Shown one piece after another: positions 15,351 through 55,309 of a DNA stretch of 64,000 nucleotides (positions within the stretch are counted from its first letter, which is position 1; the number at the start of each line of letters is the position of its first letter). The stretch spans positions 186,001 through 250,000 of the forward strand of contig NZ_CDBI01000014.1 in assembly GCF_000820025.1 (NCBI RefSeq). The letters are read 5' to 3'. The DNA is from Aeromonas popoffii. GTDB taxonomy: Bacteria; Pseudomonadota; Gammaproteobacteria; Enterobacterales; Aeromonadaceae. Under the pieces are notes generated by a model. The model searched no databases. It saw only the letters and a list, made by a program, of their open reading frames with translations, and had not been told where the DNA came from. The position numbers and the translations under genes are program-made.

Positions 15351-16544
15351 ATGAACAATGAGATCCTGCCCCTGATTGATCGTAAGATGTCCCTGTTTAC
15401 TCTCGATCTCCAAAAAGTGGAAGTACTGCTGAGTCAGACGGTAATAAGTTCACGGTTCTTGGTATTAGGTGGGGCTGGTACGATAGGGCAAGCCGTCACT
15501 AAAGAGATCTTCAAACGTCATCCTCTCAAACTTCATGTCATTGATATTAGTGAGAATAACCTAGTTGAGTTGGTAAGAGATATTCGCAGCTCGTTCGGAT
15601 ACATCGATGGCGATTTTCAGACCTTTGCGCTGGATATTGGCTCCATTGAATATGATGCGTTTATCAAAGCCGATGGCGCTTACGACTATGTGCTCAATCT
15701 CTCCGCGTTGAAGCACGTGCGTAGCGAAAAAGATCCCTTCACCCTGATGCGCATGATCGATGTCAACGTGTTCAACACAGAGAAAACCATCCAGCAGTCC
15801 ATCGAGATGGGAGTGAAGAAGTATTTCTGTGTCTCGACGGACAAGGCCGCCAACCCGGTCAACATGATGGGGGCCTCCAAGCGCATCATGGAGATGTTCC
15901 TGATGCGTCGCAGCGAGCAGATTGCCATTTCAACCGCGCGTTTTGCCAACGTGGCCTTCTCCGATGGCTCCCTGTTACACGGCTTCAATCAACGGCTGCA
16001 AAAGCGTCAGCCCATCGTCGCCCCCTGCGACATCAAGCGCTATTTTGTGACACCGCAAGAGTCCGGGGAACTGTGTCTGATGTCCTGCATCTTTGGTGAG
16101 AACCGGGATATTTTCTTTCCCAAACTCAGTGAAGCACTGCATCTCATCACGTTCGCCGAGATTGCGGTGAAATATCTGGAGCGGCATGGTTACAAGCCTT
16201 ATCTGTGCAAGGACGAGGATGAAGCCAGGACCATGATGGCGAGCCTGCCGGAGCAGGGAATGTGGCCTTGCCTCTTTACAAAGAGCGATACGACGGGTGA
16301 GAAAGACTTCGAAGAGTTCTTCACTGATAAAGAAGTGCTGGACATGGAGAGGTTCGAAAATCTGGGTATCATCAAGAATGCAGCCGCCTACCAGAATGAC
16401 TTGCTCAACCATTTTGAGCAGACCATTACTGCCATGAAAATGAAACGTGCCTGGGACAAGAAAGATATCGTGGAGTTGTTTTTTGCCATGCTCCCGGGCT
16501 TTGCTCATAAAGAAACGGGCAAATACCTCGACGGCAAGATGTAA
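15351..16544 (+). CDS. legB: NDP-N-acetylglucosamine 4,6-dehydratase (LegB-type)
   Basis: First committed step of nonulosonic-acid synthesis: an NAD(P)-dependent extended SDR that converts NDP-GlcNAc to the 4-keto-6-deoxy sugar. 397 residues; the Rossmann motif LVLGGAGTIGQAVTKEI (about 37-53) and the catalytic region STDKAANPVNMMGASKRIME (about 161-180) are clear. The MMGASK segment corresponds to the MxxxK active site of this family. A C-terminal extension (about 270-397) follows. It opens a run of nine genes on the plus strand with legC 9 bp downstream. PseB-type (pseudaminic) activity is the alternative; the hydrolysing epimerase and ptmE in the same cluster favour the legionaminic route. 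Confidence 0.85.
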   Translation: MNNEILPLIDRKMSLFTLDLQKVEVLLSQTVISSRFLVLGGAGTIGQAVTKEIFKRHPLKLHVIDISENNLVELVRDIRSSFGYIDGDFQTFALDIGSIEYDAFIKADGAYDYVLNLSALKHVRSEKDPFTLMRMIDVNVFNTEKTIQQSIEMGVKKYFCVSTDKAANPVNMMGASKRIMEMFLMRRSEQIAISTARFANVAFSDGSLLHGFNQRLQKRQPIVAPCDIKRYFVTPQESGELCLMSCIFGENRDIFFPKLSEALHLITFAEIAVKYLERHGYKPYLCKDEDEARTMMASLPEQGMWPCLFTKSDTTGEKDFEEFFTDKEVLDMERFENLGIIKNAAAYQNDLLNHFEQTITAMKMKRAWDKKDIVELFFAMLPGFAHKETGKYLDGKM

Positions 16545-16553
16545 GGAGTCGGT

Positions 16554-17699
16554 GTGCATACTCAATTAATTCGTTTTATTCGTGATACCTACAAGACCGA
16601 TGACTTCATCCCTCTCCATTCGCCGACCTTTGCCGGCAATGAGCGACAATATGTTCTGGACACTCTGGAAAGCACCTTTGTCTCCAGTGTCGGCGCCTAT
16701 GTTGAGCAGTTTGAGCACCAAATAGCGGCCTTTACCGGTTCTGCCCGTGCCGTTGCCACCATGAATGGCACGGCGGCGCTGCATATCGCGCTCTATATGG
16801 CGGGGGTACAGGCCGGCGATCTAGTGATCACCCAGCCCCTGACTTTCGTGGCGACCTGCAACGCCTTGTATCACATGGGCGCAGAACCCGTGTTTGTCGA
16901 TGTGTCACGCCAGAGCCTGGGTCTGTGCCCCATTGCCTTGGCCAACTGGCTGGAAGAGCATGCCTCTCGCACCGAGACAGGAGCCATCCACAAGGCAAGC
17001 GGGCGCCGCCTGCAAGCCGTTGTGCCCATGCACACCTTTGGTCATCCGGTTGAACTCGATGAGCTTCAGGCCGTGTGTCAGGCCTGGGGCATAGCTCTAG
17101 TGGAAGATGCTGCCGAAAGCCTTGGCTCCTATTACAAAGGCAAACATACAGGGACGTTGAGTGCATTTTCCGCCCTGAGCTTCAATGGCAACAAGATTAT
17201 CACCACGGGGGGCGGCGGCATGGTGCTCTGCCAGAATGCCGAACAGGGGGCGCGTACCAAGCACATCACCACTACGGCCAAGGTGCCGCACCCGTTCGAG
17301 TTCTATCACGATGAGCCTGGCTTTAACTACCGGATGCCCAATCTGAATGCGGCTCTGGGGTGTGCCCAGATGGAGGCCTTGCCTCAGTTCCTGGCACAGA
17401 AGCGGGCACTTGCCATGCACTATGCCGAGTTCTTCAAAGATCAGGCGTGCCAGTTTGTCACCGAACCGCCCTACGGGCGTTCCAACTACTGGCTCAATGC
17501 GATTGTCTGTGAAGATCAAAGCCAGCGGGATACCCTGTTGACCGAGCTGAATAAAGCGGGCGTCATGATCCGACCGGTGTGGAAGCTGATGCACCGCCTG
17601 CCCATGTTCTCCCATGTCCTGCGAGGAGACCTAAGTCAATCAGAATTCCTTGAAGCTCATTTGGTAAATTTACCGAGTACGCCTGTACTCCGAGGATAA
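16554..17699 (+). CDS. legC: DegT/DnrJ/EryC1 aminotransferase LegC
   Basis: PLP-dependent sugar aminotransferase that aminates C4 of the 4-keto intermediate. 381 residues with the DegT fold: TGSARAVATMNGTAALHIAL (about 62-81), VVPMHTFGHPVELDEL (about 158-173), VEDAAESLGS (about 183-192, PLP-ring Asp), and the PLP lysine in SFNGNKIITTGGGGMV (about 207-222). It starts with GTG at 16554, 9 bp after legB. DNA composition is still backbone-like and changes abruptly just after this gene. Confidence 0.9.
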   Translation: MHTQLIRFIRDTYKTDDFIPLHSPTFAGNERQYVLDTLESTFVSSVGAYVEQFEHQIAAFTGSARAVATMNGTAALHIALYMAGVQAGDLVITQPLTFVATCNALYHMGAEPVFVDVSRQSLGLCPIALANWLEEHASRTETGAIHKASGRRLQAVVPMHTFGHPVELDELQAVCQAWGIALVEDAAESLGSYYKGKHTGTLSAFSALSFNGNKIITTGGGGMVLCQNAEQGARTKHITTTAKVPHPFEFYHDEPGFNYRMPNLNAALGCAQMEALPQFLAQKRALAMHYAEFFKDQACQFVTEPPYGRSNYWLNAIVCEDQSQRDTLLTELNKAGVMIRPVWKLMHRLPMFSHVLRGDLSQSEFLEAHLVNLPSTPVLRG

Positions 17700-17703
17700 G
17701 ACA

Positions 17704-18708
17704 ATGGTTGCACAAAATAACTGTGATCTATCGTCAGATATCTACTACCAGCGAGCTTATTCGGCATTGTATGAGGGAGCCAGTGCTTACTTTCACTTTC
17801 TCTATGAAGAAGGATGTCACTCCGTAAAATTTAGTGCGTTGAAACGCCGAATAATGAATGTTGCAGGAGTAAAAATAGATGAGGAGCTGTATGATTTAGA
17901 AACGCCTTATGGGTATGGAGGTCCTATCTCTAACTGTATGGATGAGCAATTTTTACAAAATGCCTTCACTGCATACAGAGAATACTGTAAGCAGCATCAC
18001 ATTATATGTGAATTTATCCGATTTCATCCATTTAACAGTATGGCTGATAAAAGCATGCTGTTTGACATGCACTTTCCTGAGCGACAAGTAGTTATTGTTG
18101 ATTTAAAAAAAACGATAACAGAGCGTCGCAATATATATTCAAAAACGACAAGAAACATTGTAAGAAAAGCAGAAAAAAACTTGTTAGTCGAAACTGAAGA
18201 TGTAAGCCTTAATGACTTCATTGGTATGTATTACCTGACGATGAAAAAAAATTCCGCGAGCGATTTTTTCTACTTTAAAGAAGATTACTTCAAAGAGTTG
18301 ATGAATTTAGCGGGAGTATCCCTCCTCGCTATTAAAAAAGAAAACATTTACGCATCCATTGGTTTTTTTATGTGTAGTAAAGAACTTGCTTATTATCATC
18401 TTTCAGCCAATAACCCAGAGTTTGTTAAAGAGAATGGTAATTATCTGCTGCTTGATGCTGCATTTGAGTTTGCGAAAAAGCAGGGATGCAAATATATGAT
18501 GTTAGGAGGAGGAAGGACTTCATCTCCAGATGATAACTTGTTTCTATTTAAGTCTAAGTTCTCGCCATTAGTCGCCCCCTTTTATATTGCAGGCTTGGAT
18601 TTCATGCCAAAAAAACGCCAGATGTTAAACCAAATTTGGTGTGAACAAAATCAAGGAGTACAACCTCCGAAATTATTCCAGCTATACAGAGTTGAGAGGA
18701 ACACATGA
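17704..18708 (+). CDS. FemAB/GNAT-like acyltransferase of the nonulosonate cluster
   Basis: 334-residue protein with features of the FemAB/GNAT superfamily: FYFKEDYFKELMNLAG (about 197-212), AYYHLSANNPEFVKENGNYL (about 234-253), and a C-terminal MMLGGGRTSSPDDNLFLFKS (about 262-281) that resembles the FemAB core. No membrane segment or signal is seen. It sits between legC and legI with a 4-bp spacer and a 4-bp ATGA overlap, so it is part of the operon. It could transfer an acyl or aminoacyl group to an amino-sugar intermediate; this is inference. It is not part of the minimal legionaminic pathway. Composition becomes AT-rich from here on. Confidence 0.6.
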   Translation: MVAQNNCDLSSDIYYQRAYSALYEGASAYFHFLYEEGCHSVKFSALKRRIMNVAGVKIDEELYDLETPYGYGGPISNCMDEQFLQNAFTAYREYCKQHHIICEFIRFHPFNSMADKSMLFDMHFPERQVVIVDLKKTITERRNIYSKTTRNIVRKAEKNLLVETEDVSLNDFIGMYYLTMKKNSASDFFYFKEDYFKELMNLAGVSLLAIKKENIYASIGFFMCSKELAYYHLSANNPEFVKENGNYLLLDAAFEFAKKQGCKYMMLGGGRTSSPDDNLFLFKSKFSPLVAPFYIAGLDFMPKKRQMLNQIWCEQNQGVQPPKLFQLYRVERNT

Positions 18709-19706
18709 TGAGCAATACTTTTATTATTGCAGAGGCTGGAGTGAACCATAATGGTGACATCAACTTAGCAAAAAAATTGATCGATGTAGCCTTTGATGCC
18801 GGCGTTGATGCTGTAAAATTTCAAACATGGAAAACTGAATTACTGGTAACTGAAGACGCAAGAATGGCGAACTACCAGATTGAAAATACCCAGCGAGAGG
18901 AAACTCAGTTTCAAATGCTGAAACGGTTGGAACTAAGTTACTCCGACTTCATCTTGCTTAAAGAATATTGTGATGAAAAAAATATTATTTTTATGTCTAC
19001 GCCAGATGAAGAGCAAAGTGCAACATTTCTAAATAACTTGCAAAGCATATTTAAAATTGGCTCTGGTGAACTAACCAATATTCCATTTCTTCGTCACATT
19101 GCGTGTTTTGGTAAACCCGTTATCTTATCTACCGGTATGGGGTATCTATCGGAGGTAGAGAATGCAATTCTTACGTTAAGTGAAGCGGGGATTCCTTTGT
19201 CAGATATTACTGTTCTTCATGCAACAACAGACTACCCTACTTCACCTAGTGATGTGAATCTGCGAGCGATGACAACTATTGAAAATGCATTTCCAGGAGT
19301 GACTATTGGTTATTCAGATCATACCTTGGGCATCGAAATACCAATAGCAGCAGTCGCTCTTGGTGCGAAAGTAATTGAAAAACATTTCACCCTAGATAAA
19401 ACCATGCAAGGTCCCGATCATAAGGCAAGTTTGGAACCTTCTGAATTGGCCAATATGGTATCAGCTATTCGAAATATCGATAGAGCACTGGGTGATGGTT
19501 GGAAAATACCAACTAAAGCAGAAAAATTAAATCGAAATATTGTCAGGAAAAGCATTATTGCAAGAATAAATATTCCTATTGGTACACTAATTAGTGCGGA
19601 TATGTTGGAAATTAAGCGCCCTGGTAATGGTATCTCAGCAGCTCGTTGGGATGAAGTTGTTGGGTCGATAGCGAAAAAAAATTACCGTGAGGGGGAGCTG
19701 ATCTAA
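18705..19706 (+). CDS. legI: N,N'-diacetyllegionaminate synthase (NeuB/LegI family)
   Basis: Condenses the released diacetylated 6-deoxy hexose with phosphoenolpyruvate to form the nine-carbon acid. 333 residues: a TIM-barrel NeuB domain (about 1-270) with EAGVNHNGD (about 9-17), AVKFQTWKTE (about 36-45), KIGSGELTN (about 116-124), STGMG (about 139-143) and EKHFTLDKTMQGPDHKASLE (about 225-244). A C-terminal SAF domain (about 275-333) with RKSIIARINIPIG follows. The start overlaps the preceding stop (ATGA) and its own stop overlaps legG (TAATG). NeuB (sialic acid) and PseI are close relatives; context supports LegI. Confidence 0.88.
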   Translation: MMSNTFIIAEAGVNHNGDINLAKKLIDVAFDAGVDAVKFQTWKTELLVTEDARMANYQIENTQREETQFQMLKRLELSYSDFILLKEYCDEKNIIFMSTPDEEQSATFLNNLQSIFKIGSGELTNIPFLRHIACFGKPVILSTGMGYLSEVENAILTLSEAGIPLSDITVLHATTDYPTSPSDVNLRAMTTIENAFPGVTIGYSDHTLGIEIPIAAVALGAKVIEKHFTLDKTMQGPDHKASLEPSELANMVSAIRNIDRALGDGWKIPTKAEKLNRNIVRKSIIARINIPIGTLISADMLEIKRPGNGISAARWDEVVGSIAKKNYREGELI

Positions 19707-20869
19707 TGCGTAAGATCTGTGTAGTAACTGCCACTCGGGCGGAATACGGTTTACTTAAGTGCCTGTTAGAGGATATCCAAGCTGATAGTGATCTTGAATT
19801 ACAAATCATATCTACCGGCACCCACCTTTCTCCAGAATTTGGTTTGACGAATCAGCAAATTGAAGGAGATGGTTTTGCTGTTAACAAAAAAATTGAAATA
19901 CTCTTATCGTCAGATACACCTATAGGTGTCAGTAAAAGTATGGGACTGGCTCAAATTAGTTTTGCTGAAGCATTTGATGAGTTAAATCCAGATATTATTG
20001 TAGTATTAGGTGATCGCTATGAGCTTATCCCTATAGTCTCGGCTGCCAATATTGCTCGTATTCCTGTTGCACACTTGAGTGGGGGTGAGCTAACTGAAGG
20101 GACCATAGATGAAACGATTCGCCATGCCATTACTAAGTTGTCACAACTTCACTTTACAGCTATGGATGAGTACACTCACCGAGTGATACAGATGGGTGAG
20201 CAGCCAAACAGAGTATTCACAGTTGGTGAAGTTGGCTTGGACAACTTAATGCGAATGAAACTGATGTCTCGCTCAGAGTTTGAAAATTCAATTGGATGTA
20301 ATCTTAAAGCGCGAAACATCCTCTTTACCTATCACCCAGAGACGACTAAAGATATTTCTGAGATAGCGATTGATTTATCTAAAATTTTACGAAGTTTAGA
20401 TAAACTGGAGGATACATTATTAATATTCACTAAAGCTAATGCTGATGTCGGTGGCCGATTACTCAATAAGATGATCGATGACTACATCACTAAAAATGAA
20501 ACTAAAGCAGTCTGTTTTTTGTCATTGGGACAGTTAAGATATTTATCTGCATTGCAATATGTAGATGCAGTTGTCGGTAATTCATCTAGTGGTATTGTGG
20601 AAGCACCGTCATTTAAAATTGCAACTATTAATATTGGTAGTCGTCAACATGGGCGTGTCAGAGCCTCAAGTGTTATTGATGTAGATGTGGATGAAGATAA
20701 AATATATTACGCTATCCAGTATATATATTCATCAGAGTTTATGGATATTTTAAAAAATACGACTAATCCGTATGGCCAAGGGAATAGTTCTCCACGAGTA
20801 GTCAGTGTACTGAAAACAGTGGATTTAGATAATTTAAAAACGAAGAGATTCTATGATGTTAAATTTTAG
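19706..20869 (+). CDS. legG: UDP/GDP-N,N'-diacetylbacillosamine 2-epimerase (hydrolysing), NeuC/LegG family
   Basis: Inverts C2 and releases the nucleotide, giving the free 2,4-diacetamido-6-deoxymannose used by LegI. 387 residues of the GT-B-like UDP-GlcNAc 2-epimerase family: VVTATRAEYGLLKCLLEDI at the N-terminus, VVLGDRYELIP (about 94-104), HLSGGELTEGTIDETIRH (about 124-141) and GNSSSGIVEAP (about 291-301). A hydrolysing epimerase at this step distinguishes the legionaminic/sialic routes from the pseudaminic route, which uses PseG. It overlaps legI by one base and the next gene by 17 bp. Confidence 0.88.
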   Translation: MRKICVVTATRAEYGLLKCLLEDIQADSDLELQIISTGTHLSPEFGLTNQQIEGDGFAVNKKIEILLSSDTPIGVSKSMGLAQISFAEAFDELNPDIIVVLGDRYELIPIVSAANIARIPVAHLSGGELTEGTIDETIRHAITKLSQLHFTAMDEYTHRVIQMGEQPNRVFTVGEVGLDNLMRMKLMSRSEFENSIGCNLKARNILFTYHPETTKDISEIAIDLSKILRSLDKLEDTLLIFTKANADVGGRLLNKMIDDYITKNETKAVCFLSLGQLRYLSALQYVDAVVGNSSSGIVEAPSFKIATINIGSRQHGRVRASSVIDVDVDEDKIYYAIQYIYSSEFMDILKNTTNPYGQGNSSPRVVSVLKTVDLDNLKTKRFYDVKF

Positions 20870-21842
20870 TTTAAAACCTATAGGTGGTGAACAAGAGATA
20901 GACTCTGATGACCTTTTTTATGAGGTGACAAATAGTGGTCGTTCATCTTTGAGATGGGCTTTGCTCTCTATGGAGTTGCAAGGTAAACGTATTCTGGTCC
21001 CTGACTTTATTTGCCAAGTCGTGATTGATATTCTTAATGAATATAATATGCAGATACACTTTTACAATGTACAAGAAGACTTTGAATTTTTTTTGCCAAG
21101 TTGTTTAGATAATTACGATGCTCTATATGTAGTTAAATATTTTGGCCATGAATCTGTATCTTTTAAAAAAACAACTAATAATAATACGTTGCCTCTGATT
21201 ATTGATGGTGTATTTGATGTGCAGCGTCCACATGTTAATTTAAAAAGCCATTGGTGTTATTTTAATAGTTTGCGAAAAATATCAGCCATAGCTGATTTTA
21301 GTCAAATCATTTCAAATAAACCATTATTTAGGATAGCGAAAAAAAATATCCCTGAATTTTCAATGTTAAAATATAAAGCGAAAGAAATAAAACATGCTTT
21401 TATTAACAATTCAAAATGGAACGAAAAAAAATATTTAGACCTCTTTTCAACTGCCGAATGTTTGATAAACGATAGCCACGACATTTATCATCCTGAAGGT
21501 AGAAGCATTTATCTGACGAGCTGTTTTTATTCAAAAATACACGATGAAATAAGTCATCGGAAAAAAAACTTAATGTCAGCAATAGAGAACTTGAAAAAAA
21601 TTAACTTTATTGGCATATCACCTGAGTTTCCCAGTTTTTTACCTTTACTTTTAAATAAGCGAGATGATGTTAGATATGAACTAATGAGGAATTCTATTTA
21701 TCTTGCCATTCACTGGCCCACAATAGAGCAGTCAAAAAATTCATTATCTGATCGAGTAATATCTATCCCCTTAGATTCTAGATATTCTGACATGGAAATT
21801 AAACACATATGCAACATAATAAGTAAGGTGGAAAATGAATAA
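20853..21842 (+). CDS. DegT-like PLP-transferase-fold protein of unknown function
   Basis: 329 residues that follow the layout of DegT/DnrJ aminotransferases but are strongly diverged. SGRSSLRWALLSMELQGKRI (about 28-47) resembles the nucleating motif, LVPDFICQVVIDIL (about 48-61) the 'P.f.c' strand, and PLIIDGVFDV (about 114-123) the PLP-Asp strand. YFNSLRKISAIADFSQII (about 134-151) stands where the Schiff-base lysine motif should be, with a candidate Lys. Glycines after the lysine are missing, so catalysis is doubtful. The gene overlaps legG and the following GNAT gene, so it belongs to the operon. AT-rich. A role in further modifying the nonulosonate is inferred only from position. Confidence 0.5.
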   Translation: MMLNFSLKPIGGEQEIDSDDLFYEVTNSGRSSLRWALLSMELQGKRILVPDFICQVVIDILNEYNMQIHFYNVQEDFEFFLPSCLDNYDALYVVKYFGHESVSFKKTTNNNTLPLIIDGVFDVQRPHVNLKSHWCYFNSLRKISAIADFSQIISNKPLFRIAKKNIPEFSMLKYKAKEIKHAFINNSKWNEKKYLDLFSTAECLINDSHDIYHPEGRSIYLTSCFYSKIHDEISHRKKNLMSAIENLKKINFIGISPEFPSFLPLLLNKRDDVRYELMRNSIYLAIHWPTIEQSKNSLSDRVISIPLDSRYSDMEIKHICNIISKVENE

Positions 21843-22344
21843 TAAAAACTTCACTCTTCAACTAACTAAATCTTCTGATTTTGAGGCTTTTTTAAACTTG
21901 AAATCTGAAACAGAAAATATATATTGGTCTGGCTTCAATAGTGTTCCAGATCGGAATATCCTTTGGTCCCATTTTATCGAGTCTATATATAGTAAGACTC
22001 GTTATTTTTTTCTTTTATTTGAGGGTGAGCAAGCAATAGGCTATCTTTATATTGATTACATTATGTTAACCAGAGCCATAGAAATCGCATATGGTATATC
22101 TAAGACTAAATCAGGAAGTGGCTTAGCTAAAACAATGATAAATTTGGGTTTATCATATATTGAACTTGAATATGACACTATCATTGCATGGATTGCGATA
22201 TCTAACATCGCTTCAATTAAATCAGTTGAGTCTTTAGGATTTAAAAGGACAGGTGAGGAAGAGTACCGAACGTTTCTTCAAGAAGTTGAACAAATAAAAT
22301 TCTGCAAGTATATAAAGAAAAAAGGTGATACAAATGAGTTATGA
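21835..22344 (+). CDS. GNAT N-acetyltransferase (candidate LegH)
   Basis: 169-residue Gcn5-related acetyltransferase. The acetyl-CoA-binding region is IAYGISKTKSGSGLAKTMIN (about 83-102), followed by AWIAISNIASIKSVESLGFK (about 122-141), the usual 'N..S..vaeklGF' motif. In the legionaminic pathway an acetyltransferase (LegH) N-acetylates C4 of the LegC product, and this is the best candidate. The FemAB-like gene at 17704 is the other. It overlaps the preceding gene by 8 bp and ptmE by 11 bp. Confidence 0.75.
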   Translation: MNNKNFTLQLTKSSDFEAFLNLKSETENIYWSGFNSVPDRNILWSHFIESIYSKTRYFFLLFEGEQAIGYLYIDYIMLTRAIEIAYGISKTKSGSGLAKTMINLGLSYIELEYDTIIAWIAISNIASIKSVESLGFKRTGEEEYRTFLQEVEQIKFCKYIKKKGDTNEL

Positions 22345-23383
22345 ATGGAAAAATCTATTACTGACTCCATCTTCGACAATCTTAGATGCCCTAGCGATTA
22401 TTAATAAAGAATCCTTGAAAGTTGCACTTGTCGTTAGACAAGATAATTACCTAATGGGTGTGGTGACTGATGGTGATATTCGTCGTGGCCTACTGAAACA
22501 CTTGTCATTATCTGATAGTGTATCTATGGTAATGAATACTAATCCGATTACTGCGGAGTTTGATACTGAGAACAAAGTCTTGATTGCGCTCATGGCTTCT
22601 AGGTCAATTCTATTCATTCCTTTAATGAAGGGAGGTACAGTCGTTGGATTAGAAACAATGCAAGGGGTGCTAAGTAAGCCAATATATGAAAATCCAGTTT
22701 TCATCATGGCAGGTGGATTTGGAACTCGCTTGAGACCCTTGACGGAATGTTGTCCCAAACCAATGCTAAAGGTAGGAGGAAAACCAATCCTTGAGCTACT
22801 ACTCTGTAGATTTATCAAGGCAGGGTTTAAAAATATCTATATCTCCACCCACTATATGCCGGAGCAGATCACCAACTATTTTGGTGATGGTTCAGCTTGG
22901 GGAGCCAATATTCGTTACGTACATGAAGAGACTCCACTAGGAACAGGTGGAGCCCTAGGTCTACTACCTACCGATATACCAACCTTGCCACTCATCATGA
23001 TCAATGGTGATATTCTAACTACGGTAGATTTTGAACGACTGATCGATTTTCACAATAAATATCAGCCAGCAGCCACCATGTGTGTTCGTGATTATGAACA
23101 TCAGATCCCATTTGGGGTCATTAGCGGTGATGGTCATCGTATAATCGAGATGCAAGAAAAACCCATCCAGCGCTACCTCGTTAATGCGGGAATATACGTG
23201 GTCAGCCCTGATGTGTTTAGGAGTGTGCCAAGCCAGAAGTATATTGATATGCCTACTTTGCTGGAACAGCAGATAGCCAAAAAACAAGATGTTTTAATGT
23301 TTCCTCTCCATGAATATTGGCTAGACATTGGCCGTATAGATGATTTTAACAAGGCACAGCTAGACATTAAGGGGTTAGTGTAA
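22334..23383 (+). CDS. ptmE: CBS-domain sugar-1-phosphate nucleotidyltransferase PtmE
   Basis: 349 residues: two CBS repeats (about 10-115; VVTDGDIRRGL is typical) fused to an NTP_transferase domain (about 121-349) with the nucleotide-binding GGFGTRLRPLTE, the KPMLKVGGKP segment and MINGDILTT (catalytic Asp). In Campylobacter PtmE makes GDP-glucosamine/GDP-GlcNAc precursor for legionaminic acid, so its presence links this cluster to a GDP-sugar route. ATG at 22334 with AAAGG 9 bases upstream; an in-frame GTG at 22325 is less likely. Partners ptmA, ptmF and pgmL are not in the window. Confidence 0.85.
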   Translation: MSYEWKNLLLTPSSTILDALAIINKESLKVALVVRQDNYLMGVVTDGDIRRGLLKHLSLSDSVSMVMNTNPITAEFDTENKVLIALMASRSILFIPLMKGGTVVGLETMQGVLSKPIYENPVFIMAGGFGTRLRPLTECCPKPMLKVGGKPILELLLCRFIKAGFKNIYISTHYMPEQITNYFGDGSAWGANIRYVHEETPLGTGGALGLLPTDIPTLPLIMINGDILTTVDFERLIDFHNKYQPAATMCVRDYEHQIPFGVISGDGHRIIEMQEKPIQRYLVNAGIYVVSPDVFRSVPSQKYIDMPTLLEQQIAKKQDVLMFPLHEYWLDIGRIDDFNKAQLDIKGLV

Positions 23384-24087
23384 TGTCACTAAATATTGCT
23401 ATCATTCCGGCACGTGGAGGCAGTAAACGCCTACCAAATAAAAATATCTTGCCATTGGCGGGTAAACCGTTGATCACCTGGACGATAGATGCGGCTCTCG
23501 AGAGTCAGCTATTTGATATGGTATTGGTGAGCACAGACTCTCAAGACATCGCTGATATCGCAATAAATGCTGGCGCGACCGTGCCATTTTTACGACCAGC
23601 CCAGCTAGCCAATGATACCGCAACAACCAATGATGTAATCACTCATATGATCGAGTGGGTTGAATTACATTACAGAAGGGTGTCAAGGGTGACACTGCTA
23701 CAGCCAACATCGCCCCTGCGTGATGCAAATAATATTAAAGAGGCCATGGCACTTTATGAGATGAAAAATGCGCTGGCCGTTATCTCGGTTTGCGAACTTG
23801 AGCACCCTATACAATATTGCAATCGCCTATCAGAGAATTTAAGCATGGAGGGTTTTCTTCCCATTGCAGCGAATCGACGTAGTCAAGAGCTAGAACCTTA
23901 TTATCGATTAAATGGTGCAATTTATATTTTTGATAGAAAATTTGTTGGCAAAATGTCCGATATATATTCTAAAGGTTCTATAGCTTATATTATGAGCAAG
24001 TTAAAATCTGTAGATATTGATGATGAATTTGACTTCAACATGGCTGAATTTATTAAAAATAACTGCCATCATGAAAATAAAAGATGA
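23383..24087 (+). CDS. legF: CMP-legionaminic acid synthetase (NeuA/LegF family)
   Basis: Activates the nonulosonic acid with CTP to the CMP-sugar donor. 234 residues with the cytidylyltransferase signature IIPARGGSKRLPNKNI (about 6-21), STDSQDIADIA (about 48-58), LLQPTSPLRDANNI (about 100-113) and LNGAIYIFDR (about 178-187). It starts at TAATG overlapping ptmE and is the last gene of the cluster; maf converges from the other side 101 bp away. NeuA, PseF and LegF share these motifs; the cluster context decides. Confidence 0.87.
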   Translation: MSLNIAIIPARGGSKRLPNKNILPLAGKPLITWTIDAALESQLFDMVLVSTDSQDIADIAINAGATVPFLRPAQLANDTATTNDVITHMIEWVELHYRRVSRVTLLQPTSPLRDANNIKEAMALYEMKNALAVISVCELEHPIQYCNRLSENLSMEGFLPIAANRRSQELEPYYRLNGAIYIFDRKFVGKMSDIYSKGSIAYIMSKLKSVDIDDEFDFNMAEFIKNNCHHENKR

Positions 24088-24188
24088 CATATGCCACCTG
24101 ATTTTTAATCAAAGTGGCAGTGATGATATTTCATACTCATTTTTAAAATTTAAAAAAAAGATTATGAGCTCATCCTGCCACTATATAT

Positions 24189-26279
24189 TTACTTTTTATA
24201 TAAATTAACTATTTCATTATCAACCATATCTACACTATCAAGTGCCTTGGGATACATATCTTTTGCTTTTTTCAGAAAACCTAACCAGAGGTCGATTGCA
24301 GGTTTCATCATGGCTAATGCTTTTTCTTCCTCTTTAAACAAGTAAAGAATAGAACTCAACATGGCGAACATATGATTCATCGAGCCGTTCAACATTTGTG
24401 CGATTATCTTATTCTTGGTTGTAGATATCTGAGAAAGATAACCGAAGTGCCTTAGCATCAATTGATTTATCTCATTTCTAGATGAAAAATCATGTTGCCA
24501 TTCACCTATTATCTTATCGACAACATAATTGAAGAAATCAACATCCAGTAATGATTTAAAATCCTGCATTGGCAGTCCCAAAGGGGCACAGAGGTGATTG
24601 GTTATTTCATGCAGAATAGCTGCCTTATCAATAGGCTGACATAGTACGATGTCATGGGCGGGAACAGGTCTAGCCCCCGATATTTTGGCACCATCACTAC
24701 AGTTGGCACAATGTACATCTTTATTTATGGCCAATACATCTTCAATGATATGCCTCGAGGTATCATACATCGCATTACTTATAACGACACCACCAAAATT
24801 AGCCTCACATTGCCGTTCATGGTCGCTACACACCAACTCAGTCAATATTTTAGCATTTTTTTCATTATTATAATATGCACTAGACTTAGCGTGATGGTGA
24901 TTTTTATCCTTATAGCCGTTATCCAAACCAAACAGATATAGATTTTTAAATCCAAGCTGGATAGGCGCATGAACCCCTATATTGCCAACAAAGGGATTAA
25001 CCGCCTGCCAAGCGGCAAAATCTTTGGCGGCAGAAAAATATGTTTGGCACATCATCACCCCTGGTTCATTGCTCTTAAACGCAAGAACCGTTTTCTTGAA
25101 CAGGGTTGAACAGTCTGGATGGACGACATCAGTGCTCAAAAACAAAATATCTTGTAAGTATTCAGGGTCATCCAGATTAACCATAAAATCATAAATTGCT
25201 TTGGTGCGTTCAATTTGAACTTCTATATCTGGCTTGATCCCATGCTTATGTAAAGCTGATATAGCACTGCCACAAGATATCAAAATGGCACGGTCTTTAT
25301 TATTTTTAATAGTAGCTAATGACTCATCGAGTGATGGGCCACTACCAATAATAAACACCGGAACTCTTTGATAATCCTGCGCAATTTTTTTATTTTTCTT
25401 AAAAAATGGTACGCCACGTTCAATATTGCGCATAGTATGAGAAAGTGCGATCAGGCTATCATCAAAAAAGCCCCATCCCATCACTAATAGATAATATTGC
25501 TGCTGTACCGTTTTCATAAGATTTTTTATCATATCATTTTGATACCCCCACATAATAAAAGCATTTGCAACCAAGAATGCACCTCGACAACTAACCGCCG
25601 ATGAAAAATCCCTGACTATACTCTGTTCATCCTGTCCTAACAGAATATGCAATCCCAGATTTTCCTGATACAAATAGGCTAGCAGTGGGGCCCAGTCGAA
25701 GCAGAACAATGAAGCGTAGAATAAATCCAGGTCTGGCTCAAACAAGAACAACGAGCTAACTTTGCAACGCTCATAAAGATAACCAAGGTGATAACCCAAA
25801 CCAACCCCAAAGATCAATGCACAGGGAACTTGATCTGGTACTTTAACGAGGTGTTCTGCTTGTGATGATATTTCATCCTTATAAATATTAAGATTGTTGA
25901 GGTGTTCAACATGGATGGAGCCCATTGGGTTCGCTTCCTGGCGGAAGGAAAATTTTGACAATGCCCCCTTATCCATGAATTCATTCACGAGTGTCTCACA
26001 GCTGAGATAGGGTTCAGCCCCATAAATGGCAACGTCATCGTCAAGCCATTTAAGATTTGGTTGACCGTTTTCATTACAAAAAAAACTGAATGGACGTGTA
26101 GGAGAATAAACCTCATACATATCAGCGATGTGAGGAATATATTTCCGAAAGGCCTCTATGTTCTGTGTAAAACGAAGCGGCAATGCGACCATCATGGCAG
26201 CTTCTTGCTCTGCTTGTTGTTGAAGTCTCCGCATTTCCTGCTCGGCTTTTACCAGCACAGTATCAATATTGACCGACAT
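24189..26279 (-). CDS. maf: Motility accessory factor (Maf) flagellin nonulosonate transferase
   Basis: 696 residues of the Maf family (DUF115/MAF_flag10), cytoplasmic glycosyltransferases that transfer CMP-activated pseudaminic or legionaminic acid to Ser/Thr of flagellin before export. The central domain contains FGVGLGYHLGYLYE (about 157-170) and VPVFIIGSGPSLDESLATI (about 307-325), the DUF115 nucleotide-sugar signature, followed by ILISCGSAISALHKHGIKPD (about 332-351). The ATG overlaps the preceding stop (TGATG) with AAGGAG upstream. It sits next to the CMP-nonulosonate cluster and downstream of the flagellin operon, which supports the function. In this genus the gene is often called maf1. 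Confidence 0.92.
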   Translation of the reverse strand: MSVNIDTVLVKAEQEMRRLQQQAEQEAAMMVALPLRFTQNIEAFRKYIPHIADMYEVYSPTRPFSFFCNENGQPNLKWLDDDVAIYGAEPYLSCETLVNEFMDKGALSKFSFRQEANPMGSIHVEHLNNLNIYKDEISSQAEHLVKVPDQVPCALIFGVGLGYHLGYLYERCKVSSLFLFEPDLDLFYASLFCFDWAPLLAYLYQENLGLHILLGQDEQSIVRDFSSAVSCRGAFLVANAFIMWGYQNDMIKNLMKTVQQQYYLLVMGWGFFDDSLIALSHTMRNIERGVPFFKKNKKIAQDYQRVPVFIIGSGPSLDESLATIKNNKDRAILISCGSAISALHKHGIKPDIEVQIERTKAIYDFMVNLDDPEYLQDILFLSTDVVHPDCSTLFKKTVLAFKSNEPGVMMCQTYFSAAKDFAAWQAVNPFVGNIGVHAPIQLGFKNLYLFGLDNGYKDKNHHHAKSSAYYNNEKNAKILTELVCSDHERQCEANFGGVVISNAMYDTSRHIIEDVLAINKDVHCANCSDGAKISGARPVPAHDIVLCQPIDKAAILHEITNHLCAPLGLPMQDFKSLLDVDFFNYVVDKIIGEWQHDFSSRNEINQLMLRHFGYLSQISTTKNKIIAQMLNGSMNHMFAMLSSILYLFKEEEKALAMMKPAIDLWLGFLKKAKDMYPKALDSVDMVDNEIVNLYKK

Positions 26280-26605
26280 CAGAACTCCTTACTATTCAGG
26301 TTATAGGCCTGTCCAGCCTTGTTACCTTTCCCGACTTGAACCAGCTTATTAAAAACAATTTGATGATAGCTGACAGTTAAAGCTTTCAGCCTTTCTTCTT
26401 GAATGGACAGTGCAGCGGCCAATTCCGCAACTGCCTGCTGTTGCATTGGGCACTCTTTGGCCAGTTGCGCCAACTGATCTATCAAGGCCAATCGTTGATC
26501 CATGCACGGCAAAGCCTCATCATATTGATGCTGTTGCAATAGATCCTCTATCAAGTAGAGATTATTCCGTAATGCCTCATCGAGGAAGGCAAGAGTGACT
26601 CTCAC
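26279..26605 (-). CDS. FliT/FlaI-like flagellar protein
   Basis: 108-residue, largely helical, charged protein (EALRNNLYLIEDLLQQHQYD... then QERLKALTVSYHQIVFNKL). Size, helical content and position right after fliS match FlaI of polar vibrio/aeromonad flagellar loci, a FliT-like export chaperone that would hold FliD. Family similarity is inferred mainly from context. GTG start at 26605 overlaps the fliS stop (GTGA), and its stop overlaps maf, so the three are translationally coupled. Confidence 0.65.
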   Translation of the reverse strand: MRVTLAFLDEALRNNLYLIEDLLQQHQYDEALPCMDQRLALIDQLAQLAKECPMQQQAVAELAAALSIQEERLKALTVSYHQIVFNKLVQVGKGNKAGQAYNLNSKEF

Positions 26606-28942: not shown

Positions 28943-29860
28943 TTAGCCGAGCAGAGACAAGGCAGACTGAGGACGCTGGTTAGCTTGGGCCAACACGCTT
29001 GAGGCCGCTTGCTGCAGAATGTTCTGCTTGGTCATATTGGCAGTCTCGGTGGCAAAGTCCGCATCACGAATACGGGAGCGGGCTGCTGATACGTTCTCCG
29101 AAATATTGGCCTGGTTGCGAATGGTCGAATCCAACCGGTTCTGTACCGCACCCAGCTCGGCACGCTTGCCATCGACTACCCCCAGCATGGCATCTGCTGC
29201 GGCCAACACCTTTTGTGCCTCACTCTGGCTAGTAATATCGATAGCACCAGCGCCGCCACCACCAAAAATAGTGATAATGCTAACATTCGTCGTTACACTG
29301 CCCGCAGCACCGCTGATGACAGCAATCGTGGTTCCCGCAGCCTTGGCAATGCCAGAAATGCTGAACCCCGCAGACTGATTCAAGCTAAAGCCGATAGTTT
29401 GGTTGGCATCAGCACCAACTTGGAAACTCCCCTTAAAAGACCCATCCAACAGTTTGGTGCCCGCAAAGGTGGTATCCTTCGAGATCCGGTTAATCTCAGA
29501 CCCGAGCTGATCTACCTCTTTTTGTAGCGCTTCACGATCTTTGGCAGAGTTGGAACCGTTGGCAGATTGCTGGGCCAGGGTGCGCATCCGCTGCAGCATG
29601 CCGGTTACCTCATCCATGGCCCCTTCCGCTGTTTGCGCCAACGAGATACCATCGTTGGCATTACGGTTACCCTGATCCAGACCGTTGATCTGTGAGGTTA
29701 AGCGGTTTGAAATTTGCAGACCTGCCGCATCGTCCTTGGCACTGTTGATGCGTAGGCCAGATGCCAGGCGAGTATATGAGGTATCCAAGGATTTACTGGT
29801 ATTCATCAGGTTACGCTGGGCGTTCAGTGATGAAGTATTGGTGTTGATAAACATGGCCAT
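28943..29860 (-). CDS. flaB: Polar flagellin FlaB
   Basis: 305-residue flagellin, filament subunit of the polar flagellum, exported through the flagellar type III system without a signal peptide. Conserved D0/D1 N-terminus [19 protein letters not shown] and [20 protein letters not shown] (about 32-51); C-terminus [20 protein letters not shown] and [18 protein letters not shown]. The central domain is very short (about 175-225, Gly/Ser/Thr-rich), where O-glycosylation by Maf is expected. I start at 29860 (GGGAGA 8 bases upstream); the upstream in-frame extension is not flagellin-like. A sigma-28 promoter lies at 30038-30064. Confidence 0.95.
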
Positions 29861-30037
29861 AATAAAATCTCCCGAAGAACATGCGACTGCGGGTTGCGCC
29901 GCCAAAGCGACGTCCCACCGTTAGAAGAACAGGTTGAACAATCCTGTGTCTTCTGGCGGGTGTCTGTTTGAACGAACAGGCCACCCGCAGTAGTGCAAAC
30001 GTTGGATTCCGAACACCCCTCGATTGCTTCACTTTAT

Positions 30038-30438: not shown

Positions 30439-31359
30439 TTAGCCCTGCAACAGTTGGAGTGCAGCCTGCGGACGCTGGTTGGCTTGTGACAGAACGCTAG
30501 ATGCAGCCTGCTGCAGAATATTTTGTTTGGTCATATTGGCGGTCTCGGTGGCAAAGTCCGCATCGCGAATGCGGGAGCGAGCAGCTGATACGTTCTCCGA
30601 GATATTGGCCTGGTTACGAATGGTTGAATCCAAGCGGTTCTGCACCGCACCGAGTTCGGCACGCTTGCCATCTACTACCTCCAGCATGGCATCTGCTGCT
30701 GCCAACACCTTTTGTGCCTCACTCTGGCTACTGATATCGATACCACCAACGCCGCCACCACCAAAAATTATTGATACGCCAACATTGGTAGTTACACTGC
30801 CCGCCGCACCGCTGATGACAGCAATCGTGGTTCCCGCAGCCTTGGCAATGCCAGAAATACTGAAACCTGCGGCCTGAGACAGGCTAAAACTGATGGTCTG
30901 GTTGGCATCAGCGCCTACTTGGAAGGTGCCACCAAAAGATCCATCCAACAATTTGGTACCCGCAAAAGTGGTAGAAGTAGAGATACGATTTATCTCTGCA
31001 CCCAGCTGATCCACCTCTTTTTGCAGGGCTTCACGATCTTTTGCTGAGTTGGAACCGTTGGCAGATTGTTGAGCCAAGGTGCGCATCCGCTGCAGCATAC
31101 CGGTCACTTCATCCATGGCCCCTTCGGCAGTTTGCGCGAGAGAGATACCATCGTTGGCATTACGGTTACCCTGATCCAACCCGTTTATCTGAGAGGTCAG
31201 ACGGTTGGATATTTGCAGACCGGCGGCATCATCTTTTGCGCTGTTGATGCGCAGACCAGATGCCAAACGGGTATAAGAAGTATCCAATGATTTGGTCGAG
31301 TTCGTCATATTACGCTGAGCGTTGAGCGATGAAACGTTGGTGTTGATATACATGGCCAT
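30439..31359 (-). CDS. flaA: Polar flagellin FlaA
   Basis: 306-residue flagellin, paralogue of flaB. N-terminus [20 protein letters not shown] and C-terminus [19 protein letters not shown]. The two products are nearly identical over D0/D1 and differ mainly at the very ends and around residues 115-230, in the short central segment ([17 protein letters not shown] here). Maf would glycosylate Ser/Thr in that segment. CTTAGGAGAATAGTT precedes the ATG. A strong sigma-28 promoter lies at 31508-31534 and a terminator at 30228-30259, so it is monocistronic, separate from the flaB operon. Confidence 0.96.
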
Positions 31360-50940: not shown

Positions 50941-51741
50941 TTGAACACCCCAATTCTATCAAATCAGCGTCGGGCCTCATGGGCGGTGCTCAAGGATGTG
51001 ACCTTCGGCTTGCTGATGCGGGAGCTCAAGACCCGTTTTGGCAACTACCGCATGGGATATTCCTGGGCTGTGCTGGATCCCTTACTTACCATTACGTTGT
51101 TCTGCTTCGTATTCGGGATGCGGCAACGCAATGGCTTTGGCGGGGTCGAAGCGCCCGTTTTTGTTGCTGCTGGCTACCTTCCTTTTCTGATGTTTCAAAA
51201 CATGGCCAGCCAGCTGCAGTCCGCAGTTAGTGCTAACAAAGGGCTGTTCTGCTATCGGCAGGTAACTCCCTTTGCCACCCTGTTCTCTCGTTTCTTGCTG
51301 GAAACTCTGATCGGCGTGCTGGTGGCCTTTGTACTGATCCTGGGGCTGATGTGGTTCGGTTTCGATGCCATGCCAACAGATCCATTGGCCGTACTGACAG
51401 GATATGGCCTGCTGATGCTCTTCTCTTTTGCGCTGGGAACCTTGTTCTGTATCGCCACCTCCCTCTCTGAGGAGGCGCGCAAGCTGATACCCATTCTGAT
51501 GCGCCCCATGATGTGGATCTCGGCGGTCTTCTTCCCGCTGGCGGCCGTGCCACAAAATTTCCAGCATCTGCTGCTGTGGAACCCAGTGGTGCACGCGCTT
51601 GAACTTATCCGCTCGGGCTGGATTGCCGGTTTTCAGACACAGGGGGGCAATTGGTCGTATCTGGCGGGCATCACCCTGGTGCTGCTGACCTTTGCGATGA
51701 GTGCCTATCGCCTCAGCCATCGACGACTCATAGCAAGCTGA
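50941..51741 (+). CDS. kpsM: Capsule ABC-transporter permease KpsM
   Basis: Inner-membrane half of the ABC exporter for group 2 capsular polysaccharide. 266 residues: LLMRELKTRFGNYRMGYSWA (about 24-43) is the ABC2_membrane entry motif, and six helices follow, with PMMWISAVFFPLAAVP (about 197-212) and WNPVVHALELIRSGWI (about 219-234). The frame has no ATG before residue 26; the family position favours TTG at 50941 as start, with weak ribosome-binding support. First gene of kpsMTED. Confidence 0.92.
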   Translation: MNTPILSNQRRASWAVLKDVTFGLLMRELKTRFGNYRMGYSWAVLDPLLTITLFCFVFGMRQRNGFGGVEAPVFVAAGYLPFLMFQNMASQLQSAVSANKGLFCYRQVTPFATLFSRFLLETLIGVLVAFVLILGLMWFGFDAMPTDPLAVLTGYGLLMLFSFALGTLFCIATSLSEEARKLIPILMRPMMWISAVFFPLAAVPQNFQHLLLWNPVVHALELIRSGWIAGFQTQGGNWSYLAGITLVLLTFAMSAYRLSHRRLIAS

Positions 51742-51745
51742 CAAC

Positions 51746-52396
51746 ATGATCACTCTGGATAACGTCTCAAAATATTACCCGACCAAGTTTGGCCGCCATT
51801 ACGTGTTAAGAAATGTGAGCTTTACCCTGCCGGGGGATCGCAATATTGGCATTTTGGGGGCAAACGGCGCGGGCAAGTCGACTCTGCTGCGCCTGCTGGG
51901 CGGCATGGACATGCCCAACAAGGGCAAGGTGATCCGCCACAGCCGGGTCTCCTGGCCACTGGCCCTGAGCGGCGGCTTTCAGGGCAGCATGACGGGGCGT
52001 GAAAATACCCGCTTCGTCTGCCGCATTCATGGGGTACACGACACGGCCGAGGTCGAAGAGTGGGTAAAAGCATTCTCTGAGATTGGCCAGCACTATGAGT
52101 TGCCCATCAAGGGGTATTCGAGCGGGATGAAATCCAAATTCTCCTTTGCCGTCAGCATGGCCTTTGATTTTGATATCTATCTGACCGACGAGATCACCTC
52201 GGTGGGGGATGCCAGATTCAGACAGAAATGCATCGATGTCTTCACCCAAAAACGGGAAACCGCCAGCCTTATCATGGTCTCTCACGACATGAAAACCCTG
52301 CGCCAACAGTGCGACATGGGCATAGTGCTGCAAAACGGGCAGTTGACCCTGCATGACGACATCGAAAAAGCCATCGCCATCTATCAAACGCTCTGA
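51746..52396 (+). CDS. kpsT: Capsule ABC-transporter ATPase KpsT
   Basis: ATPase partner of KpsM at the inner face of the membrane. 216 residues with Walker A GANGAGKST (about 38-46), the ABC signature YSSGMKSKFSF (about 127-137), and Walker B IYLTDEITSVGD (about 145-156). The length is that of group 2 KpsT. It starts 4 bp after kpsM. Confidence 0.94.
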   Translation: MITLDNVSKYYPTKFGRHYVLRNVSFTLPGDRNIGILGANGAGKSTLLRLLGGMDMPNKGKVIRHSRVSWPLALSGGFQGSMTGRENTRFVCRIHGVHDTAEVEEWVKAFSEIGQHYELPIKGYSSGMKSKFSFAVSMAFDFDIYLTDEITSVGDARFRQKCIDVFTQKRETASLIMVSHDMKTLRQQCDMGIVLQNGQLTLHDDIEKAIAIYQTL

Positions 52397-52427
52397 TGTT
52401 TTCTTTTAAGTCTTTCCACGGATATTT

Positions 52428-53621
52428 ATGACCAAAGCCAATTTGACCGCCCTGCTTGAGCGCAAGCTGCGTAAATTCAAGCGCGACCCCAAGCTGTTTC
52501 TTATCGATTCCAAGGGCTATCGGGTTGCCCATCAATCATGGAAAAAAGCCATCAAACTTGGCAGTTTTCTGTGGATCCTAGCGTGCTTCATGCTAGCAAC
52601 CTTCTATTACAGTTTTATGGCAAGCGATCGCTATGTCAGTCAGGCGAGCCTAATCATCAAGCAGGCCGATCAACTCAAGATGCTGCCGGATGCCCTCTCC
52701 ATGCTGGGGCTGGGGGGCAGCAATCATCAGGATGTGCTGGTGATCCAGGACTACCTCAAATCCTGGGATATGCTCAACACCCTGGATAACGCACTGCAAC
52801 TGAAAAAACACTTTCAAAGCGACAGTGCCGATATGTTCTCGCGCCTGCCGGCAGATGCCACCCGCGAAGAGTTTCTGGCATTTTATCGGGATCACCTCAC
52901 CGTCAGCCTGGATGAACTCTCCGGGGTATTGACCGTCAGCCTGCAAGCCTTCGAGCCTGATTATGCCAAACAGGTTGTTAGCCTGATGCTCAAAGAGAGC
53001 GAAGGCTTTATCAACCGGTTGAGCCGTCAGGTGGCGATGGAGCAACTCAAATTCGTGGAAACAGAAGTGGCCCGCTCACACGAGCGGCTGTTGGGAGAGC
53101 AGGCAAAGATGCTGGCCTTCCAGAACCAGCACCAGCTGATGAGCCCCGAGGCCACCAGTACCGCCATGATGGGGGTGGTGTCTGAGCTTGAAGCGGAACT
53201 GGTGCGCCAGGATGCCGAACTCAAGCGACTGCAAATCTACATGAACCCCAATGCCCCTGACGTGGTCGCGGTCAAAGACAGGGTCGATGCCCTCACCCGC
53301 CAGCTGGCACAAGAGAAGAAGCGCCTGACCGGCAGCGAGAAGCAATCCCTCAACGAGGTCAATGCCGACTATCAGGCGGTACAGGTACAAACCCAGCTGG
53401 CGGCCGATGTCTACAAGACAGGTCTGGTCAGCATGGAGCAGGCCCGCGTCGAGGCCTATCGCAAACTGAAGCACTTGCTGGTGGTGAGCCAACCCACTCA
53501 GGCCGAAGAGGCCGAATATCCCCGTCGTCTCTACAATCTGGCCACCATTGGCGTTCTGCTTTGCCTTTTCTACGGTCTGATCGTGATGGGTCTTGCCACC
53601 TTGCGCGAACATCAGGACTGA
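52428..53621 (+). CDS. kpsE: Capsule export inner-membrane protein KpsE
   Basis: PCP-3-type periplasmic adaptor joining the KpsMT exporter with the KpsD channel. 397 residues: an N-terminal TM (about 40-62, GSFLWILACFMLATFYYSFM), a periplasmic coiled-coil region (about 180-340) and a C-terminal TM (about 370-390, LATIGVLLCLFYGLIVMGLA). Its stop is followed 7 bp later by kpsD. Confidence 0.92.
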   Translation: MTKANLTALLERKLRKFKRDPKLFLIDSKGYRVAHQSWKKAIKLGSFLWILACFMLATFYYSFMASDRYVSQASLIIKQADQLKMLPDALSMLGLGGSNHQDVLVIQDYLKSWDMLNTLDNALQLKKHFQSDSADMFSRLPADATREEFLAFYRDHLTVSLDELSGVLTVSLQAFEPDYAKQVVSLMLKESEGFINRLSRQVAMEQLKFVETEVARSHERLLGEQAKMLAFQNQHQLMSPEATSTAMMGVVSELEAELVRQDAELKRLQIYMNPNAPDVVAVKDRVDALTRQLAQEKKRLTGSEKQSLNEVNADYQAVQVQTQLAADVYKTGLVSMEQARVEAYRKLKHLLVVSQPTQAEEAEYPRRLYNLATIGVLLCLFYGLIVMGLATLREHQD

Positions 53622-53628
53622 CAGGAGT

Positions 53629-55287: not shown

Positions 55288-55309
55288 TCATTCACTTGCC
55301 ATAAAAGTT

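Follow-up and report, generated by a model that had tools for sequence, protein, structure and literature searches.

Which nonulosonic acid (NulO) would the flagellins of Aeromonas popoffii carry? The question is raised by a 64,000-nt stretch of the assembly GCF_000820025.1 (contig NZ_CDBI01000014.1, positions 186,001–250,000 of the forward strand; hereafter the window), in which an operon of nine plus-strand open reading frames (ORFs), from LegB at 15351 to LegF at 24087, adjoins genes for a Maf transferase and two flagellins. We consider it likely that this is an island for flagellin glycosylation whose product is an alanylated legionaminic acid (Leg), delivered to flagellin by Maf. This reading is based on the gene content, the protein families, collinearity with a cluster of Escherichia coli O161, a swap of genes at one locus, and the mosaic structure of the operon.

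The nine ORFs overlap or are at most 9 bases apart and, for this reason, look like a single transcript, with the order LegB-LegC-FemAB-LegI-LegG-329-aa pyridoxal phosphate (PLP) enzyme homologue-GNAT-PtmE-LegF. Opposite to them the ORF list shows Maf, a small ORF, FliS, FliD, FlaG and the two flagellins. That published Aeromonas flagellin glycosylation is mainly pseudaminic (Pse), as an earlier note on this DNA had stated, is correct, and islands bearing neuC have already been published under the same heading: Group III of the flagellar glycosylation islands (FGI), with 16 strains, is described as pseudaminic with possibly sialic acid (PMC7874193). The word "legionaminic" does not occur in the main text of that paper. 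Compared by description only, subgroup IIIC comprises pseB, pseC, a GNAT-named gene and pseI upstream of neuC, a CBS protein, a PLP transferase and pseF, and sits, as IIIA does, next to maf-1; unlike the window, it also lists a methyltransferase (PMC7874193). The GNAT-named gene after pseC, the CBS protein, the methyltransferase and the PLP transferase are present in 3 of the 4 subgroup IIIC strains (PMC7874193). An island of a kind published as pseudaminic or sialic would, on our reading, make a different sugar, legionaminic acid.

Legionaminic versus pseudaminic acid

The earlier note had placed a legionaminic- rather than pseudaminic-type pathway at 15351–24087; the coordinates agree exactly with the ORF list, and the assignment is well supported by the LegI tree, a motif in LegB and the family cut-offs. 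LegC, LegI and LegG all score above their NCBIfam cut-offs, the last of these as the hydrolysing NeuC-like epimerase that had been recognized from the sequence, and Pfam likewise bears out the fusion of CBS and nucleotidyltransferase domains in PtmE. LegI is below the PseI cut-off (257 vs 340), and a search of the genome for PseI, though not for PseG itself, returned nothing over the cut-off. In a tree of 42 synthases, in which several rows are long-branched and sialic acid synthase NeuB is represented by the single row of E. coli K1, 24 Aeromonas PseI rows, coinciding with the PseI places found in a genus-wide PseI search, form one clade (support 100/100) with the window protein outside it. 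The latter pairs with its counterpart from E. coli O161 (100/100), and a row from genome G185 comes next (82/77). The window/O161 group, the LegH-type Leg clade, the row of locus L029 and the K1 NeuB are not separated from one another, and the rows of loci L050 and L052 are ungrouped. On these sequences, the tree excludes Pse and does not separate Leg from Neu, a distinction that rests on LegB and LegC. Synthesis of N-acetylneuraminic acid (Neu5Ac) needs neither of these two enzymes. The placement of LegB, LegI and LegF in subfamilies, which the earlier note had named as a check, thus came out for LegI as outside the PseI clade and for LegB, by motif, as the PglF/WbpM class, and left LegI unseparated from Neu.

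The signature TDK-xn-M-x3-K carried by LegB is tabulated for PglF/WbpM among C5-retaining enzymes, as opposed to Tyr in the inverting PseB type (PMC8987622). All 18 LegB rows compared have the Met (a set that leaves out L029, with another dehydratase type, as well as L056 and L057), versus Tyr at the same position in each of the 13 PseB-like rows from the genus; NCBIfam confirmed PseB at a single locus, L123. LegB is expected to be a C5-retaining 4,6-dehydratase. LegF scores just below the PseF cut-off (204.4 vs 205.7). Because the O161 LegF, from a cluster with a Leg sugar, likewise scores best on the PseF model (168 bits), this model does not separate Leg from Pse, and we rejected the family score of LegF as decisive.

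That the operon makes pseudaminic acid, possibly together with sialic acid, would follow the published description of FGI Group III, which calls such genes pse and suggests additional sialic acid (PMC7874193), and would suit a LegF that misses the PseF cut-off by no more than 1.3 bits. With LegI outside the PseI clade, no PseI over the cut-off in the genome and a LegB without the Tyr of the PseB-like rows, the Pse pathway was rejected; for sialic acid, both LegB and LegC would be superfluous. We regard this explanation as scarcely credible and the operon as legionaminic-type. Its starting compound is less clear. PtmE, tied to GDP-GlcNAc (guanosine diphosphate N-acetylglucosamine) in Campylobacter jejuni (PMC4481668), suggests such a precursor, and is the sole basis for the earlier proposal of a GDP-sugar, which we could not confirm: the absence of PtmA and PtmF from the operon and the motif class of LegB, whose members PglF and WbpM are uridine diphosphate (UDP)-GlcNAc enzymes (PMC8987622), point the other way.

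A FemAB-family protein in the place of LegH

The set of enzymes, described previously as complete, lacks a hexapeptide LegH in the operon, and elsewhere in the genome only partial matches (35% over 84–93 aa) were found. The protein that had been named as an N-acetyltransferase, next to LegC, belongs to the FemAB family (it passes the cut-off of the Pfam model), unless the later GNAT was meant. LegB, LegC, LegG, LegI, PtmE and LegF had been listed correctly; the PLP homologue and one of the FemAB and GNAT proteins had gone unnamed. Among 16 Leg loci tabulated, which are not independent and omit the LegB-bearing loci L052 and L054–L057 and a broken copy in L026, hexapeptide LegH is present in 10, FemAB in 4 (the window, O161, L027 and L029), neither in 2 and both in none. 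The PglD-like LegH proteins are encoded in L021–L025 of the genus, L141–L143 of E. coli (including O61; in L142 the hexapeptide protein was missed by the LegH query and confirmed by Pfam) and in two other genomes (L051, L053). The loci with neither are L049, with a formyltransferase, and L050, with a GNAT and a PylC-like ATP-grasp protein.

A FemAB profile of 11 relatives matched 8 PDB sequences at E ≤ 0.01, all of them aminoacyl transferases, with the names FemX alanyltransferase, lipid II glycyltransferase and aminoacyl-tRNA-dependent peptide synthase. Residues F282-K283 of the window protein align with the Phe-Lys pair (F304-K305) of FemX. For the PLP and FemAB proteins, structures modelled from single sequences (mean predicted local distance difference test scores of 37.2 and 36.5) were too poor for use. 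The FemAB protein is predicted to be an aminoacyl-tRNA-dependent transferase that alanylates the 4-amino nitrogen, later that of C7, and FemAB instead of LegH would be a sequence marker for an amino-acid-bearing NulO.

The comparison that points to alanine is with two E. coli records whose wzx is annotated O161 and which encode LegB, LegC, FemA/FemB, NeuB, NeuC, a hypothetical protein, PtmE and LegF. Eight genes are common to these clusters and the window, in the same order LegB-LegC-FemAB-LegI-LegG-PLP-PtmE-LegF, with FemAB between LegC and LegI and the PLP homologue after LegG (identities in Table 1). In O161, O-antigen genes lie downstream and there is no GNAT homologue, whereas in the window a GNAT is present, maf and the flagellins adjoin, and LegB-LegC are Aeromonas-like. 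LegB-LegC was found in 23 E. coli genomes, with the LegI-LegG region of the window covered to 99% in seven, to 4–26% in ten and unmatched in six; the seven genomes in which it is covered to at least 80% are the same seven, of 5426, that have the O161 FemAB gene. The O161 repeat is given in a review table as ->8)-a-Legp5NAc7N(D-alanyl)-(2->4)-b-D-GlcpA-(1->3)-b-D-GlcpNAc (PMC10609480). Since the FemAB-bearing O161 clusters are collinear with the window and the O161 O-antigen is reported with D-alanyl at C7, the window product is predicted to be an alanylated Leg. The O161 alanine should come from FemAB, from the PLP homologue or from genes outside the cluster.

In the proposed pathway, whose enzymatic steps, alanine acyl group and transfer to flagellin we infer, LegB would dehydrate a nucleoside diphosphate (NDP)-GlcNAc with C5 retained, and LegC would transaminate at C4. 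Alanine, for which Ala-tRNA is the most likely source, would then be attached to the 4-amino group by the FemAB-type enzyme instead of LegH. Inversion of the alanyl group to D-alanine may be due to the PLP homologue, and the GNAT would probably acetylate the alanine amine. LegG would remove the nucleotide and epimerise C2, LegI would condense the sugar with phosphoenolpyruvate, and LegF would activate the product to cytidine monophosphate (CMP)-Leg5Ac7Ala or CMP-Leg5Ac7(N-acetyl-Ala). Maf would attach the alanylated Leg to Ser/Thr of the two flagellins, replacing the usual pseudaminic acid of the genus. This would connect an island for flagellin with a reported O-antigen structure, and the masses can be predicted exactly: the calculated additions are 345.154 Da for Leg5Ac7Ala and 387.164 Da for Leg5Ac7AcAla.

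A simpler product would be plain Leg5Ac7Ac (316.127 Da) on flagellin, with FemAB or the GNAT acting as an acetyl-CoA N-acetyltransferase that replaces LegH. One analogue is PseH, a GNAT. PseH is the N-acetyltransferase of the Pse pathway (PMC4363471), and Leg-like glycans of 316 and 358 Da are borne by the flagellins of Plesiomonas shigelloides (PMC4481668). In addition, of five FemAB homologues matched in plasmids, four bear the name "GNAT family N-acetyltransferase"; because of this labelling, the GNAT-named gene of FGI subgroup IIIC may itself be a FemAB. Still, O161 has FemAB and no GNAT homologue in its cluster, yet carries D-alanyl at C7; LegI and LegG are nearer to O161 than to the LegH-type loci; and the FemAB profile matches are aminoacyl transferases. 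We judge plain Leg unlikely and keep to the alanylated form.

Clusters of the P. shigelloides and E. coli O61 type share LegB, LegC, LegG, LegI, PtmE and LegF with the window, and the target of Leg in Plesiomonas is flagellin, as proposed here (PMC4481668); unlike the window, they have LegH, PtmF and PtmA and no FemAB, and identity to the window proteins is 46% for the O61 LegI and 48% for the O61 LegG. Leg5Ac7AcAla has been reported in Vibrio vulnificus CMCP6 and, tentatively, in Aliivibrio wodanis as a 1,2-diamino-4,5-methylenedioxybenzene (DMB) product of m/z 522, and a second aminotransferase is mentioned in the A. wodanis-like cluster (PMC7371886). The calculated m/z of the DMB derivative, 522.22, equals the tentative value; these species, likened to the window by reported sugar, would have the same product if the GNAT acetylates alanine. 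In Clostridioides difficile type B, a FemAB-like gene lies in the flagellin glycan locus (PMC5207246), and the flagellin bears an aminodideoxyhexose that carries an amino acid in amide linkage and is not described as a NulO (PMC5207245). An amino-acid-bearing Leg, substituted at C5, is reported for Clostridium botulinum flagellin (PMC5207245). In a literature largely without subscription journals, no link between FemAB and Leg is stated in the titles or abstract openings of the papers listed on alanine, tRNA, flagellin and NulOs, and the sole co-mention of "legionaminic" and "FemAB" is in a paper about C. difficile. The 403 Da glycan of Aeromonas hydrophila AH-1 was considered as the sugar of the window and dropped; AH-1 has pseB-C and pseG-I homologues (PMC4691044).

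Some observations concern Leg loci with other arrangements. At L029:3601-15736, FemAB, LegC, LegG, LegI, PtmE, LegF, two methyltransferases and a weakly DegT-like protein lie beside Maf and a flagellin, with a dehydratase of the GDP_Man_Dehyd type and not the PglF-motif LegB. The formyltransferase at L049:4780-5736 occupies the usual place of LegH, perhaps giving 7-N-formyl Leg. Pairs of a formyltransferase and a PIG-L deacetylase inside Leg clusters (L021:10513-12068 and L027:6092-7629) suggest an exchange of N-acetyl for N-formyl on the sugar. A Cetobacterium plasmid capsule locus (L138:7095-9879) combines a LegC-family aminotransferase, a sugar transferase and a FemAB relative, and for this reason bacillosamine-type sugars may be further substrates of FemAB. 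Viral contigs contain one distant FemAB relative and no match to LegI.

The locus in the genus and the target of the sugar

Among 37 genomes of the genus, 30 have Pse only, 5 Leg only (including that of the window), one both (G023) and one neither (G030, 80% complete); PseI is over the cut-off in 31, LegG in 6 and LegB in the same 6. The order btuF-PseB-like-PseC-like-PseI-Maf is found in 12 of 31 Maf neighbourhoods, the pse genes being labelled by 25–35% similarity to the Leg proteins of the window, where the window has btuF-leg operon-Maf. Because they share the btuF-Maf position, the leg operon and the pse genes look like alternative alleles exchanged at a single locus. The Leg operon of G003 (L024) is likewise near maf, and the fetched Leg stretches of G023, G027, G033 and G035 show no maf.

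The alanylated Leg could instead be made for a surface polysaccharide, with flagellin not the target, just as O161 puts it into the O-antigen. Four genomes of the genus have a fetched Leg stretch without Maf or flagellin (L021, L022, L023, L025), and G035 has Leg and no Maf match at 1e-40. In the window, the operon lies directly between btuF and maf/flagellin, that is, in the pse position, NCBIfam and Pfam show among its nine proteins no match to a family of flippases, polymerases or sugar transferases, and no PseI is left to feed Maf, which together make a polysaccharide target quite improbable and favor delivery to flagellin.

Several points weigh against alanylated Leg on flagellin. The link between FemAB and alanine is a subtraction between clusters joined to one review's table, and the best PDB profile match of FemAB is limited to the C-terminal part. 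FemX enzymes take L-Ala-tRNA, whereas the O161 alanine is D, which poses the question of where D-alanine originates if the transferase is tRNA-dependent. The FemAB of the window is present in 1 of the 37 genomes, and the near-exclusion of Leg and Pse (Fisher p = 8e-5) ignores the relatedness of these genomes. The window Maf is 65–69% identical to the Mafs of 14 pse-bearing genomes (13 Pse only plus G023) and groups with them in a tree (100/99), with weak support (82/44) for a position as sister rather than inside; the Mafs of Leg-only genomes fall in three separate places. A change of donor is not visible in Maf, whose placement fits a donor-tolerant enzyme or repeated change and does not by itself show use of Leg.

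Table 1. Features of the leg operon and its flank (Id. O161 and Id. genus, % protein identity to the O161 homologue and to the best locus of the genus)
Feature	Coordinates	Strand	Id. O161	Id. genus	Basis
LegB, predicted NDP-GlcNAc 4,6-dehydratase, PglF/WbpM motif class	15351..16544	+	76	89	PF02719; PDB 3pvz residues 3-397, E 1.8e-213; motif TDKAANPVNMMGASK from residue 163
LegC, predicted PLP aminotransferase (4-amino group)	16554..17699	+	66	95	TIGR04181 533 bits, cut-off 420
FemAB/FemX-type putative aminoacyl transferase, where LegH would stand	17704..18708	+	64		PF02388 over cut-off; FemX alanyltransferase best PDB match, 3e-14
LegI, predicted NulO synthase (NeuB family)	18705..19706	+	78	50	NeuB cut-off passed, 479 vs 400; pairs with O161 LegI
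LegG, predicted hydrolysing NDP-sugar 2-epimerase (NeuC family)	19706..20869	+	74	50	TIGR03568 468 bits, cut-off 236
Divergent DegT-fold PLP-enzyme homologue, 329 aa	20853..21842	+	50		Family profile vs DegT aminotransferases, best E 2e-11; D118 and K142 invariant in 7 rows
GNAT, predicted acetyltransferase	21835..22344	+			PF13420/PF13302 over cut-off; no homologue in O161 cluster
PtmE, predicted CBS-domain sugar-1-phosphate nucleotidyltransferase	22325..23383	+	56	70	PF00571 and PF00483
LegF, predicted CMP-NulO synthetase	23383..24087	+	48	76	PF02348; nearest PDB sequences are CMP-NeuAc synthetases
Maf, predicted flagellin NulO transferase	24189..26279	-			PF20157 and PF01973 (Maf N-terminal, MptE-like domains); tree; beside flagellins
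Flagellin, likely acceptor	28943..29905	-			ORF; homologous flagellins in Maf neighbourhoods of the genus; listed TTG start probably too early
Flagellin, likely acceptor	30439..31359	-			ORF; homologous flagellins in Maf neighbourhoods of the genus

Mosaic structure, the PLP homologue and the GNAT

In blastn comparisons (E 1e-10), LegB-LegC aligns with five Aeromonas LegH-type clusters at 78–89% DNA identity over about 15450–17686, and PtmE at 70–74%, reaching through LegF in L021 and L022; the stretch from 17.7 to 22.6 kb is unmatched in these clusters except for 84 bases in L023. The O161 DNA aligns at 68% from 15450 to 21166. GC content at third codon positions is 0.64–0.65 in LegB and LegC, 0.26–0.36 in the middle genes and 0.36–0.37 in PtmE and LegF. 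Judged by these sequences and the protein identities (Table 1), the operon is a mosaic, with LegB-LegC like the Aeromonas LegH-type clusters and FemAB-LegI-LegG-PLP like E. coli O161, which we read as the exchange of a cassette that would set the C7 substituent. An 8.6 kb contig titled as a Cytophagales metagenome-assembled genome (L011, JAAFID010000145.1) is 98.1% identical to window 17792–26379; it is most likely mis-binned Aeromonas DNA, and the cassette appears to be carried by a second isolate.

The 329-aa protein reaches the cut-off of no family in NCBIfam or Pfam, and its affinity to DegT aminotransferases comes from a family profile. Of the genes between LegB and LegF in O161, only this one and FemAB are missing from the E. 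coli LegH-type clusters. Tentatively, it might be an epimerase that converts the L-alanyl amide installed by FemAB to D-alanyl on the nucleotide sugar, a doubtful role that is attractive because FemX uses L-Ala-tRNA while O161 has D-alanine. We know of no such tailoring of a sugar-bound alanyl amide, and distant relatives of the protein in loci without a FemAB match (L058–L061) weaken the idea. If it is true, FemAB, a PLP enzyme and a capping enzyme (a GNAT or methyltransferase) would constitute a tRNA-dependent mix-and-match decoration of flagella and O-antigens. In the O161 records the homologue (L144:17392-18390) is annotated as a 263-aa hypothetical protein whose start looks too late; counting the stop, the open frame is 333 codons long, and translation from an ATG upstream of that start gives the full-length identity listed in Table 1.

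The GNAT, which has no match in plasmids, would probably N-acetylate the alanine to yield Leg5Ac7AcAla. In L027 and L029, methyltransferases adjoin FemAB (that of L027 split over two ORFs), where the window has the GNAT further on instead.

Two observations stand apart from the operon. Genome G033 has, besides the full-length LegB of its Leg cluster, a second, broken LegB with internal stops (G033:C36:164493-165099; L008, L009). In the window itself, ORFs at 50941–62888 resemble, by eye, a locus for capsule export through an ABC transporter (KpsM/T-, KpsE-, Wza- and KpsC-like), inside which low-GC, glycosyltransferase-like ORFs, likewise judged by eye, lie at 56.3–60.6 kb.

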